Positions 6,206 to 33,456 of a stretch of 64,000 nt of DNA are shown here, piece by piece. Under the pieces are notes generated by a model. The model searched no databases, had not been told where the DNA came from, and saw only the letters and a list, made by a program, of their open reading frames with translations. Position numbers and translations under genes: made by a program. Positions within the stretch are counted from its first letter, which is position 1. Each line of letters begins with the position of its first letter. This stretch comes from Thiobacillus thioparus DSM 505 (lineage in GTDB: Bacteria; Pseudomonadota; Gammaproteobacteria; Burkholderiales; Thiobacillaceae), in the NCBI RefSeq assembly GCF_000373385.1, contig NZ_KB891316.1:940493-1004492 (forward strand). Direction: 5' to 3'.

Positions 6206-7477
6206 TCACTCCTTGAGTTTCGAAATTCCCAATGCGCGCAGCGTGAGGTTTTCGTAGAAGGGCCCGACATTTCCCTTCTTGATCTTGCGCAGGAAATACT
6301 TCTCGAACGCAATCTTGGCCAGGTGCACCCACTTGCCTTCGGAGAACCAGTTGACGTTGCGCGGCGGAATCTGCGGCAGCGCCACGAACGCAATGCCGGT
6401 GTCGCCAAAGTCGGCCAGGCAGACTGCGTTCCAGGTGGCCTTCTCGGTAGGTTCCTTGCCGTCCAGCAGCGAGCGGATGTTGTGCGCGGTGGCCGTCACC
6501 ATGGATTCGATCATGTAGCCGGTCTTGGGCACGCCGACCGGCAGCGGAGTGGCTTCGACCGGGGGAATGGCGACGCATACGCCGACGGAGAAGACGTTCT
6601 TGAAGGTGGGGTTGCGCTGGTACGGGTCGATGACGATGAAGCCTCGCGGATTGGTCAATCCTTCGATGCCGAGGACGGCGTCCACGCCTTTGAAGGCAGG
6701 CAGCATCATGGAGTACTTGAACGGCAGCTCGTGCTGTTTCTTCTCGCTGCCGTCCTCGTTCACCTCGGTGACGAACATCTTGCCGGCTTCGACCCTGGTG
6801 ACCTTGGCGTTGCAGATCCATTTGACGTGCTTGTCGCGGAAGGCCGATTCGATCATGCCCTTGGAGTCGCCCACGCCGCCGAGGCCGAGATGGCCGATGT
6901 AGGGTTCGGCGGTGACGAAGGTGATGGGTACCTTGTCGCGCAGCTTGCGGCGGCGCAGGTCGGTTTCCATGATCATGGCGAATTCGTAGGCGGGGCCGTA
7001 GCACGAGGCGCCCTGGACGGCGCCGACGACGATGGGACCGGGGTCTTTGACGAAGGCCTGCCAGTTGTCGTTGGAGGTGACGGCGTGGTCGACGTGGCAG
7101 ACGGACTGGGTGTGGCCGTTGGGGCCCAGACCTTCGATCTCGTCGAAAGCCAGTTTGGGGCCGGTGGCGATGACGAGATAGTCGTAGTCGATGCTGCGGC
7201 CGTCTTCGAGTTCGATGCGGTTTTCGGCGGGGTGGACACGTTTCGCGGCGACGGGGATGAAGTCGATCTTCTTCTTGCTGAGAATGGGTTCGATCGGCAG
7301 CTCGATGTCCGCGCGGGTGCGCCAGTTGACCGCCACCCAGGGGTTGGAGGGAACGAAATGGAAGGTGGGGGTGTTGGAGATGACGGTGACGCGGTCTTCG
7401 GCGCGCGCATTCTCCCGCATCTCGAACGCCATCGGCATCCCGCCTATCCCGGCTCCCAAAATCACGATGTGGGCCAT
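6206..7477 (-). CDS. sqr: Sulfide:quinone oxidoreductase, type I
   Basis: FAD flavoprotein that oxidises sulfide to polysulfide or sulfur and passes electrons to the quinone pool at the membrane. The 423-residue protein starts with the dinucleotide-binding GAGIGG motif and contains three redox cysteines, C127 (SVCHVDHA), C159 (GASCYGPA) and C353 (NAVCLADFGD), at the spacing of the Acidithiobacillus type I enzyme (128, 160, 356). ATGP at about 104-107 and the FAD-contacting GVPKTGYMIESM segment are also present. The C-terminal amphipathic region (WVHLAKIAFEKYFLRKIKKG) fits monotopic membrane attachment. This is the clearest sulfur-oxidation gene in the window. Confidence 0.93.
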   Translation of the reverse strand: MAHIVILGAGIGGMPMAFEMRENARAEDRVTVISNTPTFHFVPSNPWVAVNWRTRADIELPIEPILSKKKIDFIPVAAKRVHPAENRIELEDGRSIDYDYLVIATGPKLAFDEIEGLGPNGHTQSVCHVDHAVTSNDNWQAFVKDPGPIVVGAVQGASCYGPAYEFAMIMETDLRRRKLRDKVPITFVTAEPYIGHLGLGGVGDSKGMIESAFRDKHVKWICNAKVTRVEAGKMFVTEVNEDGSEKKQHELPFKYSMMLPAFKGVDAVLGIEGLTNPRGFIVIDPYQRNPTFKNVFSVGVCVAIPPVEATPLPVGVPKTGYMIESMVTATAHNIRSLLDGKEPTEKATWNAVCLADFGDTGIAFVALPQIPPRNVNWFSEGKWVHLAKIAFEKYFLRKIKKGNVGPFYENLTLRALGISKLKE

Positions 7478-7817: not shown

Positions 7818-9620
7818 ATGCAAAAAACACTTTCCAAACTCTCCCCCGTCTGTCCTCTCTGGGTTTACAGGATGCTCCCTTTTCTTCGCTGGTGGCCTTC
7901 GGTCAACGGCAGTACGACCCGCGACGATGCGATGGCGGGACTGACCGGCGCCCTGATCGTGCTGCCCCAGGGCGTGGCCTTCGCCACCATTGCCGGCATG
8001 CCGCCCGAATACGGCCTTTACGCGGCGATGATGCCGGCCATCATCGCCGCGCTGTTCGGCTCGTCATGGCATCTCGTGTCCGGGCCCACCACCGCCATTT
8101 CGATCGCCGTGTTTGCGTCGGTCAGCCCGTTTGCCCATCCCGGCACACCCGAATTCATCAGTCTGGTGCTGACCCTGACCTTCATGACCGGGGTCTTCCA
8201 GCTCATTCTTGGCTTGGCGCGCATGGGCGTGCTCGTCAACTTCATTTCCCATACGGTCGTGATCGGCTTTACTGCCGGCGCGGCCATGCTCATCGCAGGC
8301 AGCCAGATCAAGAACTTCTTTGGGGTCAGTATCCCGCGCGGCACGCCGTTCTTTGAGATCCTGTCCTTGTTCGTCCAGCACCTTCAGGACATCAACCCAT
8401 ACGTCACGGCGGTATCCGTCATCACGCTTGCCTCGGGCATCCTGGTCAAGCGCTTCATGCCCAAGTTCCCCTACATGATCGCCGCCATGCTGGTCGGCAG
8501 CTTTGCGGCGCTGTTCTTGAACGCACGTTACGGCGTGGAGGTCACCCACATCAAAACGGTCGGCGCCCTGCCGTCCGGCCTGCCACCGCTGTCGTCGCCC
8601 GACTTCTCCTTTGGCGCGCTGAACCAGATGCTGTTCCCGTCCCTGATCATCACCATGCTGGCCCTGACGGAAGCAGTATCCATCTCGCGTGCCGTCGCCA
8701 CGAAATCCGGGCAACACATCGACGGCAACCAGGAATTCGTCGGCCAAGGCCTGTCCAACGTGATCGGCAGCTTCTTCTCCAGCTACGCGGCGAGCGGATC
8801 GTTCAACCGCAGCGGGGTCAATTACGCGGCAGGTGCGCGCACCCCCCTGGCCGCCGTGTTCGCGTCGGTATTCCTGCTGATCATCCTGTTGCTGGTTGCG
8901 CCGCTGGCCGCCTACCTGCCCGACGCCGCAATGGCCGGGATCCTGTTTCTGGTGGCCTGGAGCCTGATCGATTTCCACCATATCAGCCTGCTGCCCAAGA
9001 TCAGCCGGCAGGAAACCTTCGTCCTGTGGGTGACGCTCATCGGCACGCTGGTCGATCTGGAGAAGGGTATCTTCTTCGGCATCGCCCTGTCGCTGGTGTT
9101 CTACCTGTATCGCACCTCACGGCCCGCGCTCGAACCCGTGCTGCCCGATCCCGATCCGGCAAGCTACCATTACACGCCCCTCGATGGCCGGTCAGAGTGT
9201 CCGCAGATGAAAATGATGCGGATCAATGGCTCGATCTTCTTCGGCGCGGTCGCCCATCTGCAACAGCAATTGCAGGAAATCGAAGAATCGGAACCCGAGC
9301 GCAAGCATCTGGTCGTAATGGCCAGCGGCATCAATTTCGTCGATCTGGCCGGAGCCGAGTTCCTGGCCGAGGCTGCACGCCAGCGGCGGAAAATGGGCGG
9401 AACCCTGTCTTTTTACCGCATGAAGAACAGCCTGGCCGACACGCTGAAACGCGGCCATTTCATGGATGACGTCGGTGAAGAAAATCTGTTCCCGGCCAAA
9501 ACCCGCCCTGCCGAGATTCTGTATCCGAAGCTCGACAACGAGATTTGCCGGAATTGCACCGTACGCGCCTTCCCCATCTGTCATCAACGCTTACCCAACG
9601 GAGAACCTCGCTCATCATGA
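7818..9620 (+). CDS. SulP-family anion transporter with STAS domain
   Basis: 600 residues. About residues 30-440 form the SulP membrane domain, including the family signature around GLYAAMMPAIIAALFGSSWHL (split here as GLYAAMMP and ALFGSS). A STAS domain follows at roughly 455-560, and the protein ends with a cysteine cluster CRNC-x6-IC. SulP proteins carry sulfate, bicarbonate or other anions. The gene overlaps the gamma-carbonic anhydrase gene by four bases (ATGA), which argues for bicarbonate, as for SulP transporters linked to carbonic anhydrase in other autotrophs; this is an inference. A second ATG at 7872 (MLPFLRWWPS) has AGG just before it and may be the true start. Confidence 0.88.
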   Translation: MQKTLSKLSPVCPLWVYRMLPFLRWWPSVNGSTTRDDAMAGLTGALIVLPQGVAFATIAGMPPEYGLYAAMMPAIIAALFGSSWHLVSGPTTAISIAVFASVSPFAHPGTPEFISLVLTLTFMTGVFQLILGLARMGVLVNFISHTVVIGFTAGAAMLIAGSQIKNFFGVSIPRGTPFFEILSLFVQHLQDINPYVTAVSVITLASGILVKRFMPKFPYMIAAMLVGSFAALFLNARYGVEVTHIKTVGALPSGLPPLSSPDFSFGALNQMLFPSLIITMLALTEAVSISRAVATKSGQHIDGNQEFVGQGLSNVIGSFFSSYAASGSFNRSGVNYAAGARTPLAAVFASVFLLIILLLVAPLAAYLPDAAMAGILFLVAWSLIDFHHISLLPKISRQETFVLWVTLIGTLVDLEKGIFFGIALSLVFYLYRTSRPALEPVLPDPDPASYHYTPLDGRSECPQMKMMRINGSIFFGAVAHLQQQLQEIEESEPERKHLVVMASGINFVDLAGAEFLAEAARQRRKMGGTLSFYRMKNSLADTLKRGHFMDDVGEENLFPAKTRPAEILYPKLDNEICRNCTVRAFPICHQRLPNGEPRSS

Positions 9621-10177
9621 TCCGCAGAAACCCGTCCGGACATTTACCCGTCGTACATGACACCGCGTTTGTCGATCCCACCGCCATCCTGTGCGGCAAG
9701 ATCATCGTAGAAGAAAACGTGTTTATCGGCCCCTATGCGGTCATCCGCGCTGACGAGGTGGACGACAACGGCGAGATGGAGCCCATCGTCATCGGCGCCC
9801 ATTCCAATATCCAGGACGGCGTGGTCATCCACTGCAAGGCGGGCGGCGGCGTCACCATCGGGCGAAGCACCTCCATCGCGCACCGTTCGATCGTGCATGG
9901 CCCCTGCACCGTGGGCGATAACGTTTTCGTCGGCTTCAACTCGGTGCTGTTCAACTGCATCGTGTCCGACGGCTCGGTCGTCCGCCACAACTCGGTGGTG
10001 GAAGGCTGCACCGTGCCGCCGGGCTTCTACATCCCTTCCACCGCCAACATCCACTCCGATGCCGACCTGGCGACGATCGAGCGCGTATCGCCGCAGGCCG
10101 CCGACTTTTCGGAAAGCGTGGCGCAGGCCAACCATGAGCTGGTCAAAGGCTACAAGCGCATCCGCAACGAATTCTGA
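9617..10177 (+). CDS. Gamma-class carbonic anhydrase family protein
   Basis: 186-residue left-handed beta-helix protein built of hexapeptide repeats. The three zinc/iron-binding histidines of gamma-carbonic anhydrase are at H72 (VIHCKAG), H89 and H94 (SIAHRSIVHG), and the structural R44/D46 (VIRADE) and Q66 are present, so catalytic function is plausible. It would interconvert CO2 and bicarbonate in the cytoplasm. The ATG overlaps the SulP stop codon, indicating coupled expression with that transporter. I chose ATG at 9617 rather than upstream starts because it gives the coupling and the correct N-terminus. Confidence 0.85.
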   Translation: MIRRNPSGHLPVVHDTAFVDPTAILCGKIIVEENVFIGPYAVIRADEVDDNGEMEPIVIGAHSNIQDGVVIHCKAGGGVTIGRSTSIAHRSIVHGPCTVGDNVFVGFNSVLFNCIVSDGSVVRHNSVVEGCTVPPGFYIPSTANIHSDADLATIERVSPQAADFSESVAQANHELVKGYKRIRNEF

Positions 10178-10202: not shown

Positions 10203-10400
10203 TCATTCCTCGTCCCGTGGCGCCGCAGCGGTCAGCCACTTGGGTAATTCCCTTCCGCCCGCATTGTCGATGATGTATTGACGGATCAATCGCCGCACGA
10301 CCTGTGACGGCGTCAGGTCGCGCTGCACGCAGATTTCTTCGAACAGTTTCTTTTTCCTGGGATCGATCAGAACGGTGAGCCGGGCTGTACGGTTTTCCAT
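10203..10400 (-). CDS. Ribbon-helix-helix (CopG-like) protein, copy 1
   Basis: 65-residue protein starting MENRTARLTVLIDPRKKK, with a beta strand (TARLTVLID) followed by two helices and a PSQVVRRLIRQY segment, the ribbon-helix-helix DNA-binding fold. It is a clear paralogue of the 68-residue protein at 19114, sharing MENRTAR, LIDP, SQV and RQYIID. The start is the ATG at 10398-10400. It is divergent from the hydrogenase-like operon, and a 19-nt palindrome at 10423-10441 lies directly upstream, so autoregulation and control of the divergent operon are likely but not shown. Confidence 0.75.
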   Translation of the reverse strand: MENRTARLTVLIDPRKKKLFEEICVQRDLTPSQVVRRLIRQYIIDNAGGRELPKWLTAAAPRDEE

Positions 10401-10500: not shown

Positions 10501-12513
10501 ATGTCACATTTGGCATCCCTTGACGCTCATGTCCTCGATTTGGCTTGGGCCGGGGTGCTTTACTGGTTGGGATTGGGTTTTTCAGCGCTACTGCTGCACC
10601 GCCGGCACGGCCTGCTCACCCGACTGGTCTTTCCCCTCGGCGCCTTGGGCGCATTGTTCATGGCAGGCATCGGCGTCGCCGGGCTGCTGCAGCCCGCCTC
10701 GTCCATGGTGCTGCCCATCGGCCTGCCCGACCTGCCGTTCCATCTGCGGCTGGACGCCTTGTCTGCCTTCTTCATGGTGTTGCTGGGCGGCGCCGCATTC
10801 GGCATCACCGTGTATGCCTGCGGCTATTTCAGAAACATGGCTGCGGGTCCGCTCGCCCTGCTCGCCCTCTGGTACCACCTGTTCCTGGCCGGGATGGTCA
10901 CGGTGCTGCTGGCCGACGATGCCTACGCGTTCATGGTGGCTTGGGAGGTGATGGCCCTGTCGTCCTACTTCCTCGTCACCACCGACCACAAGATTCCCGA
11001 AATTCGCCGCGCCGGGTTTCTCTATCTGCTGATCGCGCACATCGGCGCAGTGGCCCTGCTGCTCACCTTCGGCGTGCTGCAGGGCGGCCATGGGGACTAC
11101 ACCTTCAACACCATGCGCCTGGCGGAGATGACGCCGTTCTGGTCCTCGGCAGCATTCCTGCTGGCACTGTTCGGTTTCGGCGCCAAGGCGGGCTTGGTGC
11201 CGATACACGTGTGGCTGCCGGAGGCCCACCCCGCTGCGCCGTCGCCGGTATCGGCCCTGATGTCGGGCGTGATGCTGAAGACCACCATCTACGGCTTGCT
11301 GCGCATCACTTTCGATCTGCTCAAAATACAGCTCGGCTGGTGGGGCACGCTGGCATTGGCGCTGGGCCTGGTGACCGCACTGTATGGCGTGATCTTCGCT
11401 GCCGTGCAGTCGGACATGAAACGCCTCCTGGCCTGGTCCTCGATCGAGAACATCGGCGTGATCATCGCCGCCTTCGGCCTGACGCTGATTTTTCACACCG
11501 ACGGCAAGGGCGCTCTGGCCGCACTGACGTTGACCGCCCTGCTGTACCACGCCCTCAACCACGCGTTCTTCAAGGGCTTGCTGTTCGTGGGCACGGGCTC
11601 CGTGCTGCATGCCACCGGCGAGCGGCGCATGGGCCATCTGGGCGGGCTGATGCGCTATATGCCATGGACGGCCTGGCTCACCCTGATCGGCGCGCTGGCC
11701 ATCGCGGGTCTGCCGCCGCTCAATGGCTTCGTCTCGGAGTGGCTGTTGTTGCAGGCTTTCCTGTTGACGCCGGGACTCACTCAGCCCTACCTCAACATGG
11801 TGATTCCGGTGGCGGCAGCCACCGTGGCGCTCGCCTCTGCGCTCGCAGCCTACGTGATGGTGAAATTTTATGGCGTCATCTTCCTCGGACAGCCCCGCGA
11901 TCCGGGACTGCAACATGCGCACGAGGCAAGCTGGCCGGAACGCCTGGGCATGCTGTGGCTGGCGGGCGCTTGCATCCTGCTGGGCCTGTTTCCCACGCTG
12001 GTCATCCAGCGGCTGGAACCGGTCGTGCTGATGCTGACCGGACAACGCCTGCCCGGCATCAGCAATTGGCTGTTGCTGACGCCGGTTTCGGCCGAGCGGG
12101 CAAGTTATGCGCCGCTGATTTTCTTGGCGGGCGTCACGGCGGTGGTGGCGCTCACTTATCTGTGGGTACGCCGCGTCTATCACGGCAGGGTACGCCGCAG
12201 CGAACCGTGGGATTGCGGCTATCCGGAACAGGATGCGCGCATGCAGGACAGTGCCGAAGGCTTCGGCCAGCCGATCCGGCAGATCTTCGAGGTCTTCATG
12301 CGGGTGGAACGCGAAACCCCCGACCCCTTCGACCGCCACCCGCATTACCGCGGCGACAGCCGCGACAAGCTCTGGCTGCTGATCTACCAGCCCATCGCCG
12401 ACCTGACTGCGTGGTTGTCGATGCAGGCCGCACGCCTGCAACATGGCCGCATCCAGTGGTACCTGGTCTACAGCTTCGTCACCCTGATCGTCCTCCTGGT
12501 CTTCACACGATGA
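10501..12513 (+). CDS. hyfB: HyfB-like antiporter subunit of a hydrogenase-4-like complex
   Basis: About 670 residues and 14-16 membrane helices, homologous to HyfB/HycC and the NuoL/M/N antiporter subunits of complex I. Diagnostic features are the WEVMALSSYFLV glutamate helix, KAGLVPIHVWLPEAH, and SPVSALMSGVMLKTT, whose charged residues form the proposed proton path. The start ATG (MSHLASLDAH) at 10501 is preferred over the in-frame ATG 54 bases upstream, which lies over the operator region. First gene of a six-gene cluster (B-C-E-F-G-I); its TGA overlaps the ATG of hyfC. Confidence 0.87.
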   Translation: MSHLASLDAHVLDLAWAGVLYWLGLGFSALLLHRRHGLLTRLVFPLGALGALFMAGIGVAGLLQPASSMVLPIGLPDLPFHLRLDALSAFFMVLLGGAAFGITVYACGYFRNMAAGPLALLALWYHLFLAGMVTVLLADDAYAFMVAWEVMALSSYFLVTTDHKIPEIRRAGFLYLLIAHIGAVALLLTFGVLQGGHGDYTFNTMRLAEMTPFWSSAAFLLALFGFGAKAGLVPIHVWLPEAHPAAPSPVSALMSGVMLKTTIYGLLRITFDLLKIQLGWWGTLALALGLVTALYGVIFAAVQSDMKRLLAWSSIENIGVIIAAFGLTLIFHTDGKGALAALTLTALLYHALNHAFFKGLLFVGTGSVLHATGERRMGHLGGLMRYMPWTAWLTLIGALAIAGLPPLNGFVSEWLLLQAFLLTPGLTQPYLNMVIPVAAATVALASALAAYVMVKFYGVIFLGQPRDPGLQHAHEASWPERLGMLWLAGACILLGLFPTLVIQRLEPVVLMLTGQRLPGISNWLLLTPVSAERASYAPLIFLAGVTAVVALTYLWVRRVYHGRVRRSEPWDCGYPEQDARMQDSAEGFGQPIRQIFEVFMRVERETPDPFDRHPHYRGDSRDKLWLLIYQPIADLTAWLSMQAARLQHGRIQWYLVYSFVTLIVLLVFTR

Positions 12514-13454
12514 GCACCGGCATCCTCCTGCAAGTCGCCCAGACCCTGTTTGCCATCCTGCTGGCGCCCTTGCTGATGGGCTGGGTCAACCAGTGCCGCG
12601 CCTGGCTGCAGGGGCGCAGCGCGCCGCCCATCACCCAACCCTATCGCACCCTGCGCAAGCTGTTCCACAAGGACGCCGTCATCGCGCACAATGCCTCGCC
12701 GCTGTTCCGCTTCGCGCCCTACATGAAGTTTGCCTGCATGGCGCTGGCAGCCGGCATCGTACCGACGATCGCCAATGATCTGCCCTTCTCGCCGGCAGCG
12801 GACGTCATTGCCCTGGTGGGCATCTTCGCGCTGGCACGGGTATTCCTGGCGCTGGCGGCCATGGACATCGGCACCCCGTTCGGCACCCTCGGCGCGCGCC
12901 GCGAAATGCTGGTGTCATTCCTGGCCGAACCTGCACTGCTCATGGTGTTCTTCACCGCCAGCCTGATTTCCCAGTCCACCGAACTCCCCATCATCGTCGC
13001 CACCCTGGCGCACAAGGCCTTCGCCATCCACCCCAGCCTGGCGTTCGCGGCAGTGGCGTTCTGGATGATCTCGGTGGCGGAGAACGCGCGCATCCCCGTG
13101 GACAACCCCAGTACCCACCTTGAATTGACGATGATCCACGAGGCCATGATCCTGGAGTATTCCGCCCGCCATCTCGCCCTGATCGAATGGGCGGTGGCAT
13201 TGAAACTGTTCACCTATTCCGCGCTGGGCATCGCGCTGTTCCTGCCCTGGGGCATCGCCCCCCAGGGCGATATCGCCGCCCTGCCTTTGGCGCTGGCCGC
13301 CATCGTGGCGAAGCTTGCTGTCGGCGGCGCCGCACTGTCGCTCATGGAAGCCGTCTCCGCCAAGGTGCGCCTGTTCCGCGTGCCGGAGTTTCTCGGCACG
13401 GCCTTCCTGTTGGCGGTACTGGGCATGCTGATCCATTTCCTGCTGGAGGTGTGA
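12510..13454 (+). CDS. hyfC: HyfC-like (NuoH-type) membrane subunit
   Basis: 314 residues, about eight membrane helices, homologous to HyfC/HycD and NuoH, which anchor the hydrophilic arm to the membrane. Visible family segments are QPYRTLRKLFHKD near the N-terminus, ENARIPVDNPSTHLE (about residue 192) and MIHEAMILEYS. The ATG overlaps the stop of hyfB by four bases. A longer open frame runs upstream from 10545 but is only a shadow of hyfB; homology begins at MSTGILLQ. Confidence 0.87.
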   Translation: MSTGILLQVAQTLFAILLAPLLMGWVNQCRAWLQGRSAPPITQPYRTLRKLFHKDAVIAHNASPLFRFAPYMKFACMALAAGIVPTIANDLPFSPAADVIALVGIFALARVFLALAAMDIGTPFGTLGARREMLVSFLAEPALLMVFFTASLISQSTELPIIVATLAHKAFAIHPSLAFAAVAFWMISVAENARIPVDNPSTHLELTMIHEAMILEYSARHLALIEWAVALKLFTYSALGIALFLPWGIAPQGDIAALPLALAAIVAKLAVGGAALSLMEAVSAKVRLFRVPEFLGTAFLLAVLGMLIHFLLEV

Positions 13455-13502
13455 GATGGAGCCGAACGCAATTCGCGCATTGAACGTCGGACGTCGAGCA
13501 TC

Positions 13503-14168
13503 ATGACGGCACTGCCCTACCACCTGCAGATCGTCAACCTGCTTGCGGCCCTGCTGCTGCTGATCTCGTTCGCCATGCTGTCGCAGCGTCGCGTCATCGG
13601 CCTGGTGACCCTGTTCGCCTGGCAGGGTGCCGCCTTGGCCTTGTCCACGGCCATCGTCGCCTGGTCCACCGGCCAGCACCATCTGTATTACTCGGCGGCC
13701 ATGACCCTGGGCCTCAAGGTGATCGCCATGCCCTGGTACTTCTACCGCCTGGTGAAAAAACTGGACGTGAACCGGGTCGTGGAGCCGATGATCAACATCC
13801 CGACCACCATGCTGATCGGCATCGTGCTGGTGATCTTCGCCTTCAACCTGGCGCTGCCCATCTCGGAAATGTCCGGCACGGTGACGCGCTCGACCCTGGG
13901 CATCGCCATGGCCTGCGTGCTGCTCGCCTTCCTCATGATGATCACGCGTACCAAGGCCATCCCGCAGGTGATCGGTTTCCTGTCCATGGAGAACGGCCTG
14001 TTCTTCGCCGCCACCAGCGCGACCTACGGCATGCCTCTTGTTGTGGAACTGGGCGTGGCCCTGGACGTGCTGGTTGGCGTATTCGTGCTCGGCATCTTCA
14101 TCTTTCAGATCCGCGAGACGTTCGATTCGCTGGATCTGAAGCACATGGAAAAGCTCAAGGAAAAATAA
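13503..14168 (+). CDS. hyfE: HyfE-like membrane subunit
   Basis: 221 residues, about seven membrane helices, resembling HyfE of hydrogenase-4 (itself related to NuoK and part of NuoN-like subunits). Segments such as NLLAALLLLISFAMLSQR, GLKVIAMPWYFYRL and GFLSMENGLFF match the family. It is separated from hyfC by 48 bases containing short repeated motifs (GAACGTCGGACGTCGAGC) and is followed three bases after its stop by hyfF. Confidence 0.85.
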   Translation: MTALPYHLQIVNLLAALLLLISFAMLSQRRVIGLVTLFAWQGAALALSTAIVAWSTGQHHLYYSAAMTLGLKVIAMPWYFYRLVKKLDVNRVVEPMINIPTTMLIGIVLVIFAFNLALPISEMSGTVTRSTLGIAMACVLLAFLMMITRTKAIPQVIGFLSMENGLFFAATSATYGMPLVVELGVALDVLVGVFVLGIFIFQIRETFDSLDLKHMEKLKEK

Positions 14169-14171
14169 GTC

Positions 14172-15623
14172 ATGGAACTTTTCTGGCTACTCGGCATTCC
14201 GTTGACAGGCGGTATTTTCCTGGCGCTGTGGGGTTACCGGCGCCATGCGCCGGAGATCAACGCGCTCTTCAGCCTGCTCACGCTGGCGGTGGCGGCACTA
14301 CTGACTGTGCACATCGTCGAAACCGGCCCGATGATGGTGGCAAACGGCTGGTTCTTCATCGATTCGTTCAATGTGTTTCTGGTCGCGCTGACCGCCTTCG
14401 TCGCCTTTACCACCGCGCTGTTCTCGCGCCCCTACATGCGTATCGAGCAGGAGCACGGCCGGCTCAACGCCACGCGCCTGCGCCTGTATCACAGCAGCTA
14501 CCAGATTTTCATCGGTGCCATGCTGCTGGCGCTGACCACCAACAACATGGGCATCCTGTGGGTGGCAATGGAGGCCGCGACGCTCGCCACCGTGCTGCTG
14601 GTTTCGCTGTACCGCACCCCGGCCTCGCTGGAAGCGGCCTGGAAATATTTCATCCTGTGCGGCGTGGGCATCGCGCTGGCGCTGTTCGGCACCATCCTGC
14701 TTTATTTTGCAGCGGAGAAAGTTCTGGGCCCGGGCGGCAATGCGCTGTTGTGGACGCACCTGAACGATGTGAAGGCGCAGCTCGAACCCACAGTGCTGTC
14801 GCTGGCCTTCGTCTTCCTGCTGGTCGGCTACGGGACGAAAGTAGGCCTGGCGCCTCTGCACAGCTGGCTGCCGGATGCCCATGCCGAGGGCCCGACGCCG
14901 GTGTCCGCCGTGCTCTCCGGACTGCTTCTCAATGTCGCGCTGTATGCGGTGATGCGCTCCAAGGTGCTGGTGGACGGCGCACTCGGCAATGACATGGCGG
15001 GGGCGCTGATGATGGGTTTCGGTTTGCTTTCCGTCGTACTGGCGGCATTCCTGATCGTACGTCAGACCGACGTCAAGCGCATGTTCGCCTACTCTTCCAT
15101 CGAACACATGGGGCTGATCACGTTCGCTTTCGGCATGGGCGGCGCAGTGGCAAACTTTGCCGGGCTGCTGCACATGACCATGCACTCGCTCACCAAGTCC
15201 GCCATCTTCTTTGCCGTCGGCCACGCCACGCAAAAAACCGGCACGCAATTGATGGATGACATCCGCGGCCTCATCAAGACCAACCCCACCCTCGGCTGGG
15301 GCCTGATGCTCGGTACCGTCGCCATCCTCGGCATGCCGCCGTTCGGCGTGTTCGCCAGCGAATTCCTCATCATCACCACCGCCATGCACGAGCATCCCTG
15401 GGCCACGCCCTTCCTGCTGCTGGCGCTGGGCGTGGCCTTCGCAGCCATCTTCGGCAAGGTGCAGCCCATGGTGTTCGGCGAGACCGAGCTGCCGAAGCTG
15501 CCCTACCAGCCTGCGCAGACGCCGGTGTTCCTGCATCTGGGCCTGGTGTTGATGCTGGGCCTGTTCATTCCGCCGTATCTCGCCGCCTGGTACAAGCAGG
15601 CGGCCCAGTTGCTGGGAGGCTGA
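14172..15623 (+). CDS. hyfF: HyfF-like antiporter subunit
   Basis: 483 residues, about 13-14 helices, a second NuoN/M-like antiporter subunit. The glutamate helix WVAMEAATLATVLLV, the segment KVGLAPLHSWLPDAHAEGPTPVSAVLSG (abbreviated here as KVGLAPLHSW and GPTPVSAV) and SIEHMGLITFAFG are characteristic. A complex carrying both HyfB and HyfF would have two antiporter-type modules, as in hydrogenase-4. The stop at 15621-15623 is followed one base later by hyfG. Confidence 0.87.
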   Translation: MELFWLLGIPLTGGIFLALWGYRRHAPEINALFSLLTLAVAALLTVHIVETGPMMVANGWFFIDSFNVFLVALTAFVAFTTALFSRPYMRIEQEHGRLNATRLRLYHSSYQIFIGAMLLALTTNNMGILWVAMEAATLATVLLVSLYRTPASLEAAWKYFILCGVGIALALFGTILLYFAAEKVLGPGGNALLWTHLNDVKAQLEPTVLSLAFVFLLVGYGTKVGLAPLHSWLPDAHAEGPTPVSAVLSGLLLNVALYAVMRSKVLVDGALGNDMAGALMMGFGLLSVVLAAFLIVRQTDVKRMFAYSSIEHMGLITFAFGMGGAVANFAGLLHMTMHSLTKSAIFFAVGHATQKTGTQLMDDIRGLIKTNPTLGWGLMLGTVAILGMPPFGVFASEFLIITTAMHEHPWATPFLLLALGVAFAAIFGKVQPMVFGETELPKLPYQPAQTPVFLHLGLVLMLGLFIPPYLAAWYKQAAQLLGG

Positions 15624-15624
15624 G

Positions 15625-17175
15625 ATGAAGATCGGCGATCACGAGTGGCGCCTCGACCCCATCGGTCCGCATATCTGGCGCGGGCGCGTGGAAACCGGGC
15701 AATTGCTCGCGCTGTCGCGTGCGGTCAAGGATGAAGGCGGACAGCTCGTCGCGCTGTGGGGCTCGGACGACCGCCACCTGAACGGTGGCTTCGGCATTCA
15801 TGTCGCCCTGCTCACCGGCTTGGGGTTGGCCTGGGTGAGTTGCGCCTTGCCGACGGAGCTGCCCGCCTATCCCGATCTCGCGCATATCTTCCCGCAGGCC
15901 GACCGCATGCAGCGCGCGGCCTTCGACCTGCTTGGCATCACGGCCACCGACGCAGTGGACGAGCGCAAATGGCTGCGCCACAACGCCTGGGCCGCAGACG
16001 AATTCCCCCTGCGCAAGGATTTCTCGCCGCTCACTGCTCACCGCTTACCGCTCCCGGAAGTCGACGCCTATCCCTTCATCCGCGTGCAAGGCGACGGCGT
16101 GCACGAAATCGCGGTCGGCCCCATCCACGCCGGTACCATCGAACCGGGGCATTTCCGCTTCTCCATCATTGGCGACCGCATCCTCAAGCTGGAAGCGCGC
16201 CTGGGCTATACCCACAAGGGCATCGAGAAACGTTTCGAGGGCATGGATATCGCCACAGGCGCCAGGCTTGCCGGACGTGTGTCCGGCGATTCGCACAGCG
16301 CCTATGCCTGGGCCTATTGCATGGCCGTCGAGATGGCGACCGCCAGCGCCGTGCCCGAGCGGGCGTTGTGGCTGCGCGCCCTGTTCCTGGAAATCGAGCG
16401 CATCGCCAACCATCTGGGCGATCTCGGTTACCTGGGCAACGACGTGGCGCTCGCGTTCGGCTTCGTGCAGTTCTGGCGTCTGAAGGAAGACTGGCTGCGA
16501 ATGAGCGCAAAGCTGTTCGGCCACCGTTATCTGTTCGATCGCATCACGCCGGGCGGCGTGGCTACGGATATCGACGCCGCGGGGCAAGCCGAGCTCGACG
16601 CCCTGGCCAGCCGCATCGAGATCGAAGTGCGCGAACTCAAGGCCATCTACGACGAGCATGCCACCTTGCAGGACCGCTTCGCCGATACCGGCATCTGCAA
16701 ACCCGAGCTGGCTGCGCAGTTGGGCCTGACCGGGCTGGCCGGCCGCGCCAGCGCCCAGGCCTGGGATGCGCGTACGCAATTTCCGCAGGCCCCCTACGAT
16801 CAGCTGGATGTGAACATGGCGACCCAGCGCCGGGGCGATGTGCTGGCGCGCGCGGAAGTGCGCTTTGCCGAAGTATACGAATCCCTGCGATTGATCCGCG
16901 GCATCCTCAAGCGCCTGCCGGCGGGCGGCATACACGCACCGCTCCAGCCGGTGCAGGCTGTATGCGAAGGCCTGGGTTGGGTGGAAAGTTGGCGCGGCGA
17001 GGTGGTGGTGGCAGTACGAATTGCGGCCGACGGCACGCTCGACCGCGTGCATCCGCACGATCCGTCCTGGCAGAACTGGCCGCTGGTGGAAGTGGGTGTG
17101 CTGGACAACATCGTGGCCGACTTCCCGCTCATCAACAAATCCTTCAACCTCTCCTACAGCGGACCGGATTTATAA
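15625..17175 (+). CDS. hyfG: HyfG-like large subunit lacking Ni-Fe ligands
   Basis: 516 residues: an N-terminal NuoC-like domain (about 1-130) fused to a NuoD/hydrogenase large-subunit domain. The N-terminal ligand motif RxCGxC reads RVSGDS (S220, S223) and the C-terminal DPCxxC reads NLSYSG (S510, G513), so all four Ni-Fe ligand cysteines are replaced. It therefore cannot hold a Ni-Fe site and belongs with the energy-converting hydrogenase-related (Ehr) complexes, not with true hydrogenases. The linker between the two domains contains a 20-nt sequence repeated elsewhere in the window (16027-16046). Natural substrate unknown. Confidence 0.85.
   Translation: MKIGDHEWRLDPIGPHIWRGRVETGQLLALSRAVKDEGGQLVALWGSDDRHLNGGFGIHVALLTGLGLAWVSCALPTELPAYPDLAHIFPQADRMQRAAFDLLGITATDAVDERKWLRHNAWAADEFPLRKDFSPLTAHRLPLPEVDAYPFIRVQGDGVHEIAVGPIHAGTIEPGHFRFSIIGDRILKLEARLGYTHKGIEKRFEGMDIATGARLAGRVSGDSHSAYAWAYCMAVEMATASAVPERALWLRALFLEIERIANHLGDLGYLGNDVALAFGFVQFWRLKEDWLRMSAKLFGHRYLFDRITPGGVATDIDAAGQAELDALASRIEIEVRELKAIYDEHATLQDRFADTGICKPELAAQLGLTGLAGRASAQAWDARTQFPQAPYDQLDVNMATQRRGDVLARAEVRFAEVYESLRLIRGILKRLPAGGIHAPLQPVQAVCEGLGWVESWRGEVVVAVRIAADGTLDRVHPHDPSWQNWPLVEVGVLDNIVADFPLINKSFNLSYSGPDL
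16027..16046. repeat. Dispersed short repeat inside hyfG
   Basis: CCGCTCACTGCTCACCGCTT occurs here in-frame in the linker of the hyfG-like gene and again at 22125-22144 between cbbO and cbbQ, each followed by N-CCGCT. A 20-base exact match in unrelated places suggests a dispersed genomic repeat. Confidence 0.45.
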
Positions 17176-17176
17176 G

Positions 17177-17710
17177 ATGGCTTCGTACCTGATCCTCCAG
17201 AAGATCCTCAAGACCGGCTTCGTCTCCGAACCGGCGCCCCAGGCCGACCCCGCACTGCGCACGCGCGAGCAGGCGCTGCATGCGGTAATCCTCAAGGTGT
17301 TCGGCCAGGCGGTGGCGATCCGCCACGTCGACGCCGGTTCCTGCAACGGCTGCGAACTGGAAATCCATTCGCTCAACGGTCCGCACTACAACATCGATGG
17401 TCTGGGGGTGAAATTTTCCGCCAGTCCCCGGCATGTCGACGTACTGCTGGTGACCGGCCCGGTTTCGCGCCACATGGAAGCCGCGTTGAAGCGCGCCTAT
17501 GAAGCCATACCGGACCCCAAGTGGGTGGTGGCCATGGGCGAGTGCGCCTGCACCGGCGGGATGTTCGGCGAGAGCTATGCGTCGTGCGGAAAAATATCCA
17601 ATGTCATCCCCGTCGACGTCGAAGTGCCAGGCTGCCCACCCACCCCGACTGCGTTGCTGCAAGGCATTCTGGCTGCCGTCAGCAAGGGGGCGCCCAACGC
17701 GGACGATTAG
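17177..17710 (+). CDS. hyfI: HyfI/NuoB-like iron-sulfur subunit
   Basis: 177-residue homologue of the hydrogenase small subunit/NuoB. It keeps the cysteines for one [4Fe-4S] cluster: CNGC, GECACTGG, and VPGCPPTP near the C-terminus, so electron transfer is possible even though the large subunit has no Ni-Fe site. It is the last gene of the six-gene cluster and starts one base after the hyfG stop. No ferredoxin-like HyfH/HycF or HyfA gene is present, so the route by which electrons reach this cluster is not visible. Confidence 0.86.
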   Translation: MASYLILQKILKTGFVSEPAPQADPALRTREQALHAVILKVFGQAVAIRHVDAGSCNGCELEIHSLNGPHYNIDGLGVKFSASPRHVDVLLVTGPVSRHMEAALKRAYEAIPDPKWVVAMGECACTGGMFGESYASCGKISNVIPVDVEVPGCPPTPTALLQGILAAVSKGAPNADD

Positions 17711-19113: not shown

Positions 19114-19320
19114 ATGGAAAACCGTACCGCCAGGATGACCATCCTGATCGATCCGCTCAAAAAGCAAATCTTCGAGGACATCTGTACACGGCAAGACCTC
19201 ACGTCGTCGCAAGTCATCCGCAAGCTGATGCGCCAGTACATCATCGATCATTCGGGTTCGCGAGAGCTGCCCGAATGGTTGACCGGGCATGCCGCCAAGG
19301 CGGGAAACCCATCGAAGTGA
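19114..19320 (+). CDS. Ribbon-helix-helix (CopG-like) protein, copy 2
   Basis: 68 residues, beginning MENRTARMTILIDPLKKQ, with the strand-helix-helix order of CopG-like repressors and SSQVIRKLMRQYIIDHSG as the second helix region. It is paralogous to the protein encoded at 10203-10400. It is divergent from the spermidine-synthase-like gene and is followed 34 bases later by a DUF167 gene on the same strand. A 19-nt palindrome upstream suggests it represses its own promoter; this is inferred. Confidence 0.75.
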   Translation: MENRTARMTILIDPLKKQIFEDICTRQDLTSSQVIRKLMRQYIIDHSGSRELPEWLTGHAAKAGNPSK

Positions 19321-19705: not shown

Positions 19706-22063
19706 TTAGCGCGTCAGACCGGCGTACAGCATCGGCAACTTCTCGGGCAGCCGCTGAACGTGGTCGACCACCATGTAGTTCTTCTGCCCGAAGATGCGCG
19801 ACACGTAGTTGTCGGCGCGCGGGTCGAGGCTCATGCAGTAGGTCGTCACGCCGTTGCGGGCGACTTCCTCCACCGCCTTCTTGGTGTCGTAGCGCAGGTA
19901 CTGCGGATCGCGTACGTCGATGTCGGCCGGCTCGCCGTCGGTGATGACGATCAGCAGCTTCTTCGCCGAGCGCTGCAGTTTCAGGTGATGGCCGGCGTGG
20001 CGGATCGCCGCGCCCATGCGGGTCGACAGCTGGCCGGTCATGCCGGCGAGCTTGGCCTTCGGCCCCTCGTCCCAGTGCTGGTCGAAGTCCTTGAAGCGGT
20101 AGTACTCGACATCGTGGCGGCCGTCCGAACAGAAACCATGGATCGCAAAGGGGTCGCCGACCTTGTTGATCGCGTCGGCCAGGAGCACGCAGGCCTGGCG
20201 CGTGAGATCCAGCACCGAGTACTCCTGATCCTGCACCGTCTCGTTGGTCGACTCCGACAGGTCCAGCAGCACCAGGATCGAGAAATCGCGCGTCTTGCGC
20301 ACGCTGCGCATCATGATGCGCGGGTCGGGCTGGTTGCCGAGACGGATGTCGATGAAGCTGGCGATCGCCGCGTTGATGTCGATCTCGTCGCCGTCCTCCA
20401 GCTTGCGGATGCGCTGCACGCCCTGCGGCTGCATCGCGTCGAGCAGGAATTTCATGCGGTGGATTTCGCGCTTGTACGTGGATGTGATGTCGTCGATCAC
20501 CTGCAGATCACCCGACTTGGCGCGCTTCTCCAGCACGGTCGCCCAGGCCGGACGCTCCAGCTGGATCTGGTAGTCCCACTCCGAATAGTGGAAGGGGTCG
20601 GACGCCGGCTCCTTGCCTTCCATCTCGTTGAAGCTCTTGCCGTGACTCTCGTCGCCGATGTTCTCGTAGGGGAAGAGCTCCGTGCTCAGCACCCAGATCT
20701 CCCCGGCATCGTCGCCCGCAGTTTCAACGTCGATCGCGTTGACCATCTCCATCACGCTGACGTTCTTGCGAACCTGCTTGACGCTCTCGTAACCGGCGCC
20801 CGCTGCCTTGTCGAAATCAAATTCCTCGAATTCCCAGAAGTAGCGGTTGTCGTCGCGGTAGGGCGCGGCGAGGATGTCGGTGCGCGGGTTGAACGGGATT
20901 CTTTTCTCGGTCAGATTGTGCGCGAGCTGGACGCCGATTTCCCACGAAACCTGGTTGTCGCCGAGGCGGTCCTGCGCGGCGGCAAACAGTGCGCGGCCCT
21001 CGGCGACCCACGGGTCGTTATCCTGGTAGGTTTCGTCCAGCAGCGCGCGGGCCAGGCGGTTGAGATAATCGCCGACGCTTGCATTCATTTCCGGCGTGGC
21101 GACATGCAGCCGGCTCCAGAGCTGCTTCAGGCCGGGGAAACGACGGATCGACAGCGCTTCCACCCGCGCGTCCTCGATGACGGAAATCACCGCCATCTGC
21201 ATCGGGTTCAGCGCTTCGGCTGAAATCGGCTCCTTCGTTTCCACCACATGCGCGGCGCAGTGCGCGGCCGTGGCGCGATAGAGCTCGAGGCCCGACACCG
21301 GCTCCTGCCCTTCGATCGCGAAGTCATCGACGGCGTCGGGCACGTGTAGCAGATAGTCGGCGATGTAGGGTCGGTAGCCCTCGCGCGACTCGAAGTCGCC
21401 CGAGGTCGGCCGCATGAAAAAGTCGCGTGCCCACAGCGCCCTTAAATACATGTTGATGCGGCGCTGCACGTCGACCAGCAGCGTGCCCTTGCGCTCCTTC
21501 TGCAGCATCGCCAGCGACTCTTTCGACTCGAGGCTGAAGTACCTGATCTGCTCTTCGTAGTTGGTGCGATGCGCGTGCGCGCCCCACAGCGCCCAGCGGC
21601 GCAGGCCGCCCAACGTCAGATGCTGGAACAGTACTTCGAGCTTGTCGAGCATCGGCCGCACGCCGCGCGGCGCCTGCGCGATCAAAGTGTTGATGAATTG
21701 CAGGTACTTGAGGAAGAGGTCGGCGTCGCCGAGCCGGCTGGCGGCGGTCGGCGCGCTGGCAAGCAGCAGCTCGATCACCGCGCCCGAGGTTTTCGACGCC
21801 AGCATCAGCGCGGTGGTGGCGAGGTCGGCCACCACACCCTCACCCACTTCCTTGGCCACCAATGGCGCCTGCTCGATCCAGGTTTCGACCAGATCGTCGC
21901 CTCGTCCCAGCCCGCGGATGGCCGACACGCCCTTCAGATAGTTGTCCAGCCCGCGCGGCGAGAACACCTTGGTGGCCTCGTGCCAGGTCGCATTCAACGT
22001 ATCGCGCGTATGCGGCGACAGGTCTTCCAGCAGTTCAGCGTAGTCTTCGAGTTTGATCGACAT
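19706..22063 (-). CDS. cbbO: CbbO, RubisCO activase subunit (VWA domain), set 1
   Basis: 785 residues. CbbO is the adaptor of the CbbQO RubisCO activase: its VWA domain docks on RubisCO while the CbbQ ring remodels it. The C-terminal VWA domain carries the MIDAS motif DLSES (D601, S603, S605) with the later TDGEP loop. The start MSIKLEDYAELL (ATG at 22061-22063) is chosen because the family begins there; the frame is open to 22132. Last gene of cbbL-cbbS-cbbQ-cbbO. A homologue lies at 54438-56702 with the form II RubisCO. Confidence 0.9.
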   Translation of the reverse strand: MSIKLEDYAELLEDLSPHTRDTLNATWHEATKVFSPRGLDNYLKGVSAIRGLGRGDDLVETWIEQAPLVAKEVGEGVVADLATTALMLASKTSGAVIELLLASAPTAASRLGDADLFLKYLQFINTLIAQAPRGVRPMLDKLEVLFQHLTLGGLRRWALWGAHAHRTNYEEQIRYFSLESKESLAMLQKERKGTLLVDVQRRINMYLRALWARDFFMRPTSGDFESREGYRPYIADYLLHVPDAVDDFAIEGQEPVSGLELYRATAAHCAAHVVETKEPISAEALNPMQMAVISVIEDARVEALSIRRFPGLKQLWSRLHVATPEMNASVGDYLNRLARALLDETYQDNDPWVAEGRALFAAAQDRLGDNQVSWEIGVQLAHNLTEKRIPFNPRTDILAAPYRDDNRYFWEFEEFDFDKAAGAGYESVKQVRKNVSVMEMVNAIDVETAGDDAGEIWVLSTELFPYENIGDESHGKSFNEMEGKEPASDPFHYSEWDYQIQLERPAWATVLEKRAKSGDLQVIDDITSTYKREIHRMKFLLDAMQPQGVQRIRKLEDGDEIDINAAIASFIDIRLGNQPDPRIMMRSVRKTRDFSILVLLDLSESTNETVQDQEYSVLDLTRQACVLLADAINKVGDPFAIHGFCSDGRHDVEYYRFKDFDQHWDEGPKAKLAGMTGQLSTRMGAAIRHAGHHLKLQRSAKKLLIVITDGEPADIDVRDPQYLRYDTKKAVEEVARNGVTTYCMSLDPRADNYVSRIFGQKNYMVVDHVQRLPEKLPMLYAGLTR

Positions 22064-22124
22064 AGTGAGCGAGCTGTAAACGGTTAGCCGTGAGCGGTAG
22101 GGGCTGGCAGCGCAAGCGGTTCTC

Positions 22125-22144
22125 CCGCTCACTGCTCACCGCTT
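22125..22144. repeat. Dispersed short repeat between cbbO and cbbQ
   Basis: Second copy of CCGCTCACTGCTCACCGCTT, also at 16027-16046. The whole 93-base spacer between cbbQ and cbbO is filled with related short direct and inverted motifs (for example GTGAGCGGTAG at about 22090-22100). Confidence 0.45.
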
Positions 22145-22156
22145 GCCGCTTACGAA

Positions 22157-22960
22157 TCAGAAGAACGTGGACACCGCCGCGTCAAGCGCGTCGCGCATGT
22201 CGGGATCGTCGGTGATCGGGCGGACCAGGGCGACGCGGCAGGCGGCCAGCGGGTTGACGCCCTTGGCGATCAGCGAACCTGCATAGATCAGCATGCGGGT
22301 CGACAGGCCTTCATCGAGGCCGTGGCCCTTGAGGTTGCGGCTGCGCTCGGCAATCGACACCAGCTTGCCGGCGACGTCGGCGTTAACGCCGGACTCGTGC
22401 GTGACGATCTCGGTCTCGATGCCGTGCTCCGGATACGTGAAGTCGAGGCCGCCGAAGCGCTGCTTGGTCGATTGCTTCAGATCCTTCATCAGACTCTGGT
22501 AGCCGGGGTTGTAGGAAATCACAATCTGGAAATCGGGGTGGGCGTGCACCAGCTCGCCCTTCTTTTCCAGCGGCAGCACGCGACGGTTGTCGGTCAGCGG
22601 GTGGATCACCACGGTGGTGTCCTGGCGCGCTTCGACGACTTCGTCCAGGTAGCAGATCGCGCCATGGCGGGCGGCGATGGCGAGGGGCCCGTCCTGCCAC
22701 TCGGTGCCGGAGGCGGACAGCAGGAAGCGGCCAACCAGGTCGGACGCCGTCATGTCCTCGTTGCACGCCACGGTGATCAGCGGCTTGCCAAGCTTGTAGG
22801 CCATATATTCGACGAAGCGCGTCTTGCCGCAACCGGTGGGACCCTTGAGCATCATCGGCATGCGCACCGAATAGGCGGCCTCGTACAATTCAACTTCGTC
22901 CGCGACCGGGCGGTAATAGGGTTCCTGGGTAATGCGGTACTGGTCGACGATATTGCTCAT
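22157..22960 (-). CDS. cbbQ: CbbQ, MoxR-type AAA+ RubisCO activase, set 1
   Basis: 267 residues, MoxR-family AAA+ ATPase that forms a hexamer with CbbO and reactivates inhibited RubisCO. Walker A is GPTGCGKT (residues 40-47) and Walker B is ICYLDEV; the conserved [17 protein letters not shown] loop region is also present. It sits between cbbS and cbbO on the minus strand. A terminator-like hairpin separates it from cbbS. The paralogue at 56712 has the same length. Confidence 0.92.
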
Positions 22961-26065: not shown

Positions 26066-26445
26066 GGCCCCTGGCCGTACCACGGCACCACGACGCGCCT
26101 CGAACGCGACCACTTCGGCACGAGCGCTGCCCGCCTGCGTGATATCCGACGGCCTCCACGGCCGATATGCATCATTCCATGTACGTTATGGTTCCCATAA
26201 AAATTTAAGACTGTTCTGTATGGATCGTCGAATTTAGGATTCTGCCTGGCACCTAGTGGATTCAGGTCCGATGACCAAGTGCGGCAGAACGCCGCCGCAC
26301 AAGCGCGATAAATGATGCAATCGATGTTCAGGGTGGTGCTTCTACCATAATTTATGGATTGACTCCCACCGCATCGTGGTCACCCGGGCAGCGTTCACGG
26401 CAGGCGCCAACCAAGACGACTCTGAAATCAAGGAGAACTGACGCG
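26066..26445. other. Leader region of the DAB operon
   Basis: 380 bases without a gene. It holds a 7-bp hairpin (GTGCGGC, 8-base loop, GCCGCAC; 26279-26300) and a 13-nt palindrome CCATAATTTATGG (26345-26357) about 90 bases before the dabB start, which could be a CbbR site. AGGAGA at 26431-26436 is the likely ribosome-binding site for the GTG start at 26446. No ncRNA family is recognised. Confidence 0.45.
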
Positions 26446-28128: not shown

Positions 28129-28129
28129 C

Positions 28130-32312: not shown

Positions 32313-32333
32313 GCGCGTGCGATGCGCGCTGCA

Positions 32334-33284: not shown

Positions 33285-33456
33285 ATCTCCCCTTTCCCTG
33301 AAAATTTATCCATTCACCATAGTGAATGACAACAATAAATATTATTCATTTTTTATTATGAAATCACCTCTTTATAGTACGCAACAAGGGCAATGGGCAC
33401 GTCTGCCCGACGCCAGACCCTAATGATCAACGGCTGAAGCATAAGGAAACCAGATT
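33285..33456. promoter_or_regulatory. cbbR/csoS2 divergent promoter with LysR box
   Basis: 172-base AT-rich region. CATTCAC-CATA-GTGAATG at 33311-33328 has perfect 7-base arms and the T-N11-A spacing of LysR sites. It lies 27 bases from the cbbR start and about 130 bases from csoS2, and AT-rich sequence up to 33380 probably holds the csoS2 promoter. Confidence 0.55.

Follow-up and report, generated by a model that had tools for sequence, protein, structure and literature searches.

The locus examined here raises the question of what work is left to a complex that is built like hydrogenase-4 and has none of the ligands of the Ni-Fe centre, and whether that work concerns the inorganic-carbon genes beside it. 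The complex is encoded by six adjoining + strand genes, hyfB-C-E-F-G-I (10501-17710), in a 64-kb stretch of contig NZ_KB891316.1 of Thiobacillus thioparus DSM 505 (hereafter the window, whose positions serve as coordinates throughout). Judged from its sequence, it is an energy-converting hydrogenase-related (Ehr) complex with a conserved non-hydrogenase site. Its link to carbon genes is real and mostly confined to one clade, and our tentative reading, to which we give somewhat less than an even chance, is that an ion-translocating Ehr complex was recruited to inorganic-carbon acquisition in this single clade of autotrophs.

Alignment of the large subunit HyfG (15625-17175, +; PF00346 and PF00329) to formate hydrogenlyase subunit 5 (HycE; 7z0s_E) places RVSGDS opposite RVCGIC and NLSYSG opposite DPCYSC, so that S220, S223, S510 and G513 stand at the four positions of the Ni-Fe cysteines. 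We counted residues in 144 HyfG sequences, the window's included, three of which (L065, L117 and L187) lack the C-terminal part: position 220 is Ser in 125, Ala in nine, Cys in nine and Val in one; position 223 is Ser in 117, Thr in 21, Ala in five and Cys in one; position 510 is Ser in 122, Ala in 13 and Asn in six; and position 513 is Gly in 138 and Ala in three, with three gaps at each of the last two positions. As each of the 144 carries at most a single cysteine over these places, the loss of the ligands is not chance decay. In the clade of 29 sequences to which the window's HyfG belongs, one of them without the C-terminal part, the ligand positions carry no thiol, and position 223 is Ala in two of the 29.

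The surroundings of the lost ligands are conserved. D222, which lies between the first two ligand positions where HycE has Ile, is present in all 144 sequences; H168, I172 and E173 are likewise invariant; and K505, N508, Y511 and D515 are kept in 141. The invariance of D222 and the retention of the latter four residues therefore point to selection on a working site. Two residues past D222, H224 is His in 29 of the 29 sequences of the window's own clade and in 0 of the 115 others (Thr in 102, Ala in 12, Ser in one), a pattern suggestive of a change on the branch of the carbon-linked clade, perhaps one event on one branch. In hydrogenases, a long C-terminal extension is cut off by hydrogenase maturation proteases; since HyfG stops three residues past G513, it has no such extension. 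Nor does it carry His38 and Tyr87 of complex I (T. thermophilus numbering), which we take to be the quinone-head residues: an ungapped alignment of HyfG puts I172 and G221 at their places, NuoD models score below cut-off, and the large subunit resembles HycE more than NuoD. With neither Ni-Fe ligands nor quinone-head residues, the site is thus neither hydrogenase-like nor NuoD-like, yet it is strongly conserved, and it would be a working site for another task.

The small subunit HyfI (17177-17710, +; PF01058) keeps its four [4Fe-4S] cysteines, C56, C59, C123 and C153, in 128 of 128 sequences, as seen in alignments to MbhJ and HycG, and this retention favours some electron transfer. In the membrane arm, the antiporter-like subunits HyfB (10501-12513, +) and HyfF (14172-15623, +) reach 895.5 and 862.9 bits with the NCBIfam models of hydrogenase 4 subunits B and F (cut-offs 667 and 543), HyfC (12510-13454, +; PF00146) is NuoH/HycD-like, and the small membrane subunit HyfE (13503-14168, +) has no Pfam match and scores below the cut-off of NF008556 (85.4 bits vs. 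136). Charged residues like those expected of an ion-translocating arm, placed by alignments to formate hydrogenlyase, Mbh and complex I, are retained: HyfB E149, K229, H243, K307, K358 and E413 in at least 99% of 116 sequences; HyfF E134, K223, K342 and E397 in at least 99% of 132; and HyfC E191, D198, E205, E211 and E216 in 100% of 122. Redox work and ion movement by the complex are both plausible. The motif CxxCxxCxxxC is absent from the window's reading frames of more than 70 residues, and among the genes called in own-clade loci it occurs only in one unlabelled 415-residue neighbour (L053); the cluster therefore has no ferredoxin subunit of this type. The preliminary description of this locus had named the six subunits, the four replaced ligands, the retained cysteines of the small subunit and the lack of a ferredoxin subunit, and the family models and gene order, the HycE alignment, the cysteine counts and the motif search bear it out on these points; it had also reckoned with homologues that keep the Ni-Fe cysteines intact, and there is none among the 144.

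Ehr complexes without ligand cysteines are described in the accessible text of PMC10284858, PMC7304191 and PMC6349859, where their function is not established; like the window complex, they have hydrogenase-4/complex I subunits, antiporter-like subunits and no Ni-Fe cysteines. The complex has both marks of this group, the subunit set of group-4 hydrogenases and complex I and the missing cysteines of the large subunit. Of the marks of group 4 [NiFe] hydrogenases it has the membrane subunits (HyfB and HyfF over their cut-offs, HyfE below) and lacks the CxxC pairs and ferredoxin-like subunits, and the NuoD residues that would mark complex I are absent from HyfG. We class it as an Ehr-type, non-hydrogenase complex because no sequence keeps more than one of the ligand cysteines, D222 is invariant and the HyfI cysteines are kept. 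It differs in its neighbours: as far as the accessible text of PMC6349859 goes, formate dehydrogenase is proposed as partner of other Ehr complexes, which otherwise appear without a partner, and Mbx is ferredoxin-dependent, whereas the window complex is accompanied by SulP, carbonic anhydrase and cbb genes. By sequence, the best solved relative for HyfB, HyfC and HyfG is the E. coli formate hydrogenlyase/hydrogenase-4 (7z0s), from which the window complex differs by the lack of the Ni-Fe ligands, of the C-terminal extension past the ligand motif and of ferredoxin-like subunits encoded alongside.

In the window's family, 38 of the 61 genomes have a HyfG match at E ≤ 1e-20, 32 of them at 57% identity or more, and hyf is found in 47 of 370 genomes of a class sample (E ≤ 1e-50, the window's genome included) that was not selected by similarity to the window protein. 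Among the best 80 of at least 578 confirmed HyfG relatives, found in 584 contig stretches, the bearers include Thiobacillus, Gallionella, Rhodoferax, Accumulibacter, Paraburkholderia, Rhodanobacter, Granulicella, methanotrophs, Thiorhodococcus, Nitrospirae and others; Paraburkholderia, Rhodanobacter and Granulicella are not mainly known as autotrophs, and RuBisCO was not searched in those bearers. A FastTree tree was built from 148 HyfG proteins, all relatives of the window protein with no published Ehr references among them, after removal of duplicates (L069, L197, L206 and L209), short rows (L127, L128 and L147) and L145, which had no HyfG gene call. In it the window's HyfG belongs to a monophyletic clade of 29 rows with at least 65% identity and full local support, which comprises betaproteobacterial autotrophs with Thiobacillus as the nearest named record.

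In this clade, a SulP, carbonic anhydrase or cbb gene lies within 6 kb of hyf in 24 of the 24 members judged. A carbon neighbour was counted even where the flank was short, and a locus was scored as lacking one only if 3.3 kb upstream could be read; when that length is demanded of every locus, the count is 21/21 in the clade and 10/79 outside it. Five own-clade, 33 other and three distant neighbourhoods were not judged (the own-clade members L041, L043, L053, L065 and L066 have no usable upstream sequence), and neighbour counts may be slightly off because the codon-usage gene caller missed some genes (the gamma-carbonic anhydrase of L060, HyfB of L190 and L204). The order hyfBCEFGI is identical in all own-clade loci with the full block, HyfB of L037 being called as two pieces. 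SulP or an anhydrase stands upstream of hyfB in 23 loci, 20 of them with SulP, two with an LCIB-like protein only and one with a gamma-carbonic anhydrase only; the SulP gene is 3.5 to 4.6 kb off in L036, L038 and L056, and in L056 on the other strand. No single inherited ortholog accounts for these upstream genes: SulP occurs there in three distinct groups and a fourth type, besides the gamma-carbonic anhydrase and the LCIB-like protein, with a median identity between the SulP labels (window type, b, c and d) of about 27 to 53%, two rows being mislabelled. As the SulP proteins fall in separate groups, in a tree that holds only SulP proteins from hyf loci, the presence of SulP outlasts its kind. 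Counts of 8 and 10 for replacements of SulP type were rejected as too high, because two rows with the label SulP_c, L040 and L049, group with SulP_b in the tree; the count of 8 is also near that for shuffled labels (mean 9.9).

Downstream genes vary within the clade, with cbb genes in some members and SHMT, NrdR and RibD in others. A cbbO gene lies downstream within 6 kb in nine own-clade members, the window included, and relatives of the window's CbbO-like gene adjoin hyf in other genomes too. Of 27 genomes, 11 have RuBisCO on the hyf contig no more than 42 kb away and one has it at 100 kb, and in the other 15 it is not on that contig; this table omits G001, G006, G013, G032 and G042 of the 32 hyf genomes. 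Two Hyf-type complexes, one of the window type and one 33-48% identical to it, lie in tandem or close together in L061, L083, L091 and L115, which represent several lineages.

In the window itself, a SulP-family anion transporter with a STAS domain (7842-9620, +; PF00916, 319.1 bits; PF01740), which is the genome's sole SulP match at E ≤ 1e-20, and a gamma-carbonic anhydrase of the CcmM N-domain kind (9620-10177, +; the CcmM model is best with 124.9 bits, below its cut-off of 550) stand directly upstream of hyf. A gene for a ribbon-helix-helix protein of 65 residues (10203-10400, −, divergent from hyfB; PF19839) lies between the anhydrase and hyfB. H71, H88 and H93 of the anhydrase align with histidines of Cam that are presumably its zinc ligands, and the substrate of the SulP protein is putatively bicarbonate or sulfate. 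Divergent ribbon-helix-helix genes within 700 bp upstream of hyfB occur in 10 of 22 own-clade loci, the window counted, and in 16 of 86 others, and their product may be a regulator of hyf. A second RHH_9-like copy (about 19114-19299, +), 66% identical to the first, is found downstream, so that the two copies bracket the hyf operon and its neighbour gene.

Some relatives have other genes beside hyf. L054, L055 and L056 have an LCIB-like protein instead of, or besides, other upstream genes, a 381-residue protein next to hyf where the window has SulP and gamma-carbonic anhydrase; for L054, to which the search was confined, the match to PF18599 is marginal (26 bits vs. a cut-off of 25) and the PDB match is PtLCIB4 at E 0.25. 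TauE/SafE-type genes lie upstream in L036, L038, L039, L060 and L204; L056 and L106 have CitMHS neighbours, which also match a sodium:sulfate symporter, and L215 has a SLAC1 neighbour. In L060 (G013), a TauE-like gene, a Usp-like gene and an 82% identical gamma-carbonic anhydrase precede a distant (46%) Hyf type, and the same cassette stands ahead of the window-type hyf in L036 and L039.

Outside the clade, a carbon neighbour was found in 14 of 83 judged loci: SulP in L073, L089, L106, L111, L116, L117, L132, L139, L204 and L211; cbb genes in L110 (CbbL-like at 31% identity, CbbQ and CbbO), L201 (RuBisCO, PF00016) and L215 (CbbO); and a DabA-like gene in L096. The upstream proteins tested there are mostly unrelated. 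From SulP density, about 0.6 SulP neighbours would be expected by chance in 83 loci against the 10 seen, of which fewer than 10 are independent because L106, L111 and L116 are close kin; in the class sample, SulP lies within 10 kb of hyf in two of 46 genomes (L204 and L211). In L110, a metagenome-assembled genome of Thiomonas, hyfBCEFGI, with hyfB cut by the contig end, is directly followed by the CbbL-like gene, cbbQ and cbbO. The preliminary description had rightly placed SulP and gamma-carbonic anhydrase beside the complex and had overlooked the ribbon-helix-helix gene; the carbon link that it proposed recurs throughout the judged members of the clade and does not hold in general.

Cyanobacterial NDH-1MS, a relative of complex I, and DAB are the systems nearest to such a link. 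According to the accessible part of PMC13144422, NDH-1MS couples ferredoxin oxidation to CO2 hydration, and DAB is a gradient-driven carbonic anhydrase. The window complex would, by analogy with these two, connect carbon capture to an ion path of the complex I type, yet it belongs to neither, because its cluster has no DabA and its large subunit is hydrogenase-like. DAB/DAC (DabA-DabB), as that part of the source presents it, resembles the window locus in that, in chemoautotrophs, an anhydrase adjoins an antiporter-like membrane part, whereas hyf encodes a six-subunit, redox-type complex; the resemblance of HyfG to HycE rather than NuoD separates it from NDH-1MS, for which a CupA-like subunit was not searched. 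Among the open papers listed by literature searches, none connected a hydrogenase-4-like complex to SulP, carbonic anhydrase, carboxysome or RuBisCO, and the accessible part of PMC4725956 has nothing on such a complex.

In the reading we favour, the Ni-Fe ligands of a complex I/hydrogenase-4 relative have given way to a conserved non-cysteine pocket; electrons would pass via the [4Fe-4S] cluster of HyfI to or from this rebuilt HyfG pocket; the membrane arm (HyfB, HyfC and HyfF) would link this transfer to the movement of ions; and the ion coupling would energise bicarbonate uptake by SulP and CO2-to-bicarbonate conversion by the neighbouring anhydrase, possibly in physical contact with one or the other. 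The complex may thereby be an unrecognised helper for carbon capture. The preliminary description had proposed that a redox reaction of quinone or ferredoxin would be coupled to ion gradients; the two quinone-head residues of complex I are also absent, I172 and G221 standing in their places. A bolder version, which we think unlikely, adds the complex to NDH-1MS and DAB as a third class of inorganic-carbon pump derived from complex I, in which the emptied pocket (D222, H224, K505 and N508) would itself drive or join CO2-to-bicarbonate conversion or bicarbonate import, together with SulP and gamma- or LCIB-type anhydrases, and could replace DAB.

Several observations weigh against a role in carbon acquisition. 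Of the 83 loci judged outside the clade, 69 have no carbon gene nearby, which rules out hyf as a general partner of carbon genes, and a class-wide link with RuBisCO was not found (28 of 47 genomes with hyf, two of them weak, vs. 167 of 323 without; PF00016 also detects RuBisCO-like proteins). H224 and the neighbourhood mark a single clade, and hence perhaps one event. The window's SulP passes the sulfate-permease model (TIGR00815, 393.6 bits, cut-off 380.45) and fails that for BicA (175.8 bits, cut-off 880), a model that may be narrower than bicarbonate-transport function, and TauE/SafE, CitMHS and SLAC1 neighbours fit sulfur oxyanions equally well. The divergent ribbon-helix-helix gene stands between the anhydrase and hyfB, so a transcript shared by hyf with SulP and gamma-carbonic anhydrase is not required. 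A bicarbonate-concentrating system would, moreover, be expected to go with carboxysomes, and hyf is commoner where these are absent: among the 61 family genomes (32 with hyf, 29 without; 24 and 16 of high quality), CsoS2 is present in 13/32 with hyf vs. 17/29 without (p 0.20), and in 10/24 vs. 14/16 of the high-quality ones (p 0.007). The distribution of DabA in the same genomes adds little on the other side. DabA is found in 7/32 genomes with hyf vs. 15/29 without, and in 5/24 vs. 12/16 of high quality (Fisher p 0.001; within-genus shuffles p 0.003), with partial matches in G008, G018 and G043 and as a second match in G028, and hyf or DabA is present in 36 of the 40 high-quality genomes. DabA goes with carboxysomes, 18 of the 22 genomes that have it also carrying CsoS2, and when genus and carboxysome are controlled together the exclusion falls to p 0.065 (high-quality) and 0.26 (all), or 0.067 and 0.27 for the own clade only; complementarity of hyf and DAB therefore lends weak support only, and we set it aside as independent proof. 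DabA itself is absent from the window's hyf cluster and comes within 6 kb of hyf in just two loci, L037 (over the PF10070 cut-off) and L096 (by blast label). In L037 (G022), SulP, gamma-carbonic anhydrase, hyfBCEFGI and HyfF-like, DabA and DabB-like genes form one + strand run.

A serious rival, which we consider possible if on the unlikely side, is that the complex serves sulfur-oxyanion or ion/pH homeostasis in sulfur oxidisers, SulP moving sulfate, TauE/SafE exporting sulfite and the complex balancing ions or redox during sulfur oxidation. It is serious because the SulP, TauE/SafE, CitMHS and SLAC1 families can carry sulfur anions; the sulfate-permease match, the TauE/SafE, CitMHS and SLAC1 neighbours listed above, a Pyr_redox_2 gene at 6206-7477 that is presumably sulfide:quinone-reductase-like, and the greater frequency of hyf in genomes without carboxysomes all suit it, and the gamma-carbonic anhydrase, the LCIB-like protein, the CbbL-like/CbbQ/CbbO run of L110 and the RuBisCO gene of L201, none with a known role for sulfate, do not. 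Another account, also unlikely in our view, sees a redox module for autotrophy that links the membrane with a soluble carrier (ferredoxin or thiol) through electron exchange, drawing on or building up the proton gradient, and so matches reductant to carbon fixation, with SulP and the anhydrases only co-regulated. It would explain why all 128 HyfI sequences keep the cluster cysteines, for which a pump without redox work would have no need, and would agree with the formate dehydrogenase partner proposed for other Ehr complexes and the ferredoxin dependence described for Mbx in the cited part of PMC6349859; it has to do without a ferredoxin-type gene in the cluster and without the quinone-head residues, and it leaves the repeated SulP and anhydrase neighbours unexplained.

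Those neighbours might also be an accident of descent, hyf being an independently regulated unit in a carbon region with no shared work. The divergent candidate regulator, the bare neighbourhoods of most relatives outside the clade and a perhaps single founding event speak for this; we judge it improbable, since the kind of SulP or anhydrase upstream changes and its presence persists, and since the downstream genes change as well (cbb vs. SHMT-NrdR-RibD). That the complex is still a hydrogenase with unusual ligands we regard as next to impossible: its hydrogenase-4 subunit make-up and the occurrence of HypD in 25 of the 32 family genomes with hyf would fit, and the sequence already contradicts it, with ligand positions free of thiols in the whole own clade and even Ala at position 223, and with HypD not found in the other seven of the 32 bearers, or in four of the 24 of high quality.

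Beyond hyf, the window carries further carbon genes. A CbbO-like protein (19706-22132, −) at the hyf-facing end of the cbb block has a VWA domain only and owes its name to its place beside CbbQ (22157-22960, −; PF08406). A putative cbbS, labelled without a family search, lies between cbbQ and the RuBisCO large-subunit gene on the other strand from hyf, and the large subunit (23537-24958, −) matches PF00016 at contig positions 964086-965012, window 23594-24520 (E 4.9e-138). A second large-subunit match lies at about 57706-58599 (−; contig 998198-999091). Separate from the hyf cluster, a DabB-DabA run (26359-31989, by family search; DabA at 28870-31989, 845.6 bits) is found along with CsoS2 and CsoSCA beyond the hyf and cbb genes. 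In this DAB-carboxysome run, two proteins have no Pfam match (28106-28873 and 32322-33329), the first of them between DabB and DabA, where a small third gene is described for DAB1 in the accessible part of PMC13144422. At 43980-45833, a Na+/H+ antiporter 1 domain (PF06965) is fused to an N-terminal DsbA/thioredoxin-like domain.

In conclusion, Ehr complexes are a group whose function is not established, and a clade near Thiobacillus in which they stand beside genes for anion uptake, carbonic anhydrase and RuBisCO turns that function into a testable question. If hyf helps carbon capture, it would do so mostly without a carboxysome. Should a carbon role prove true, chemoautotrophs would gain another complex I-derived inorganic-carbon system beside DAB, one with a redox centre, and the hydrogenase-4 annotations in autotroph genomes would need rereading.

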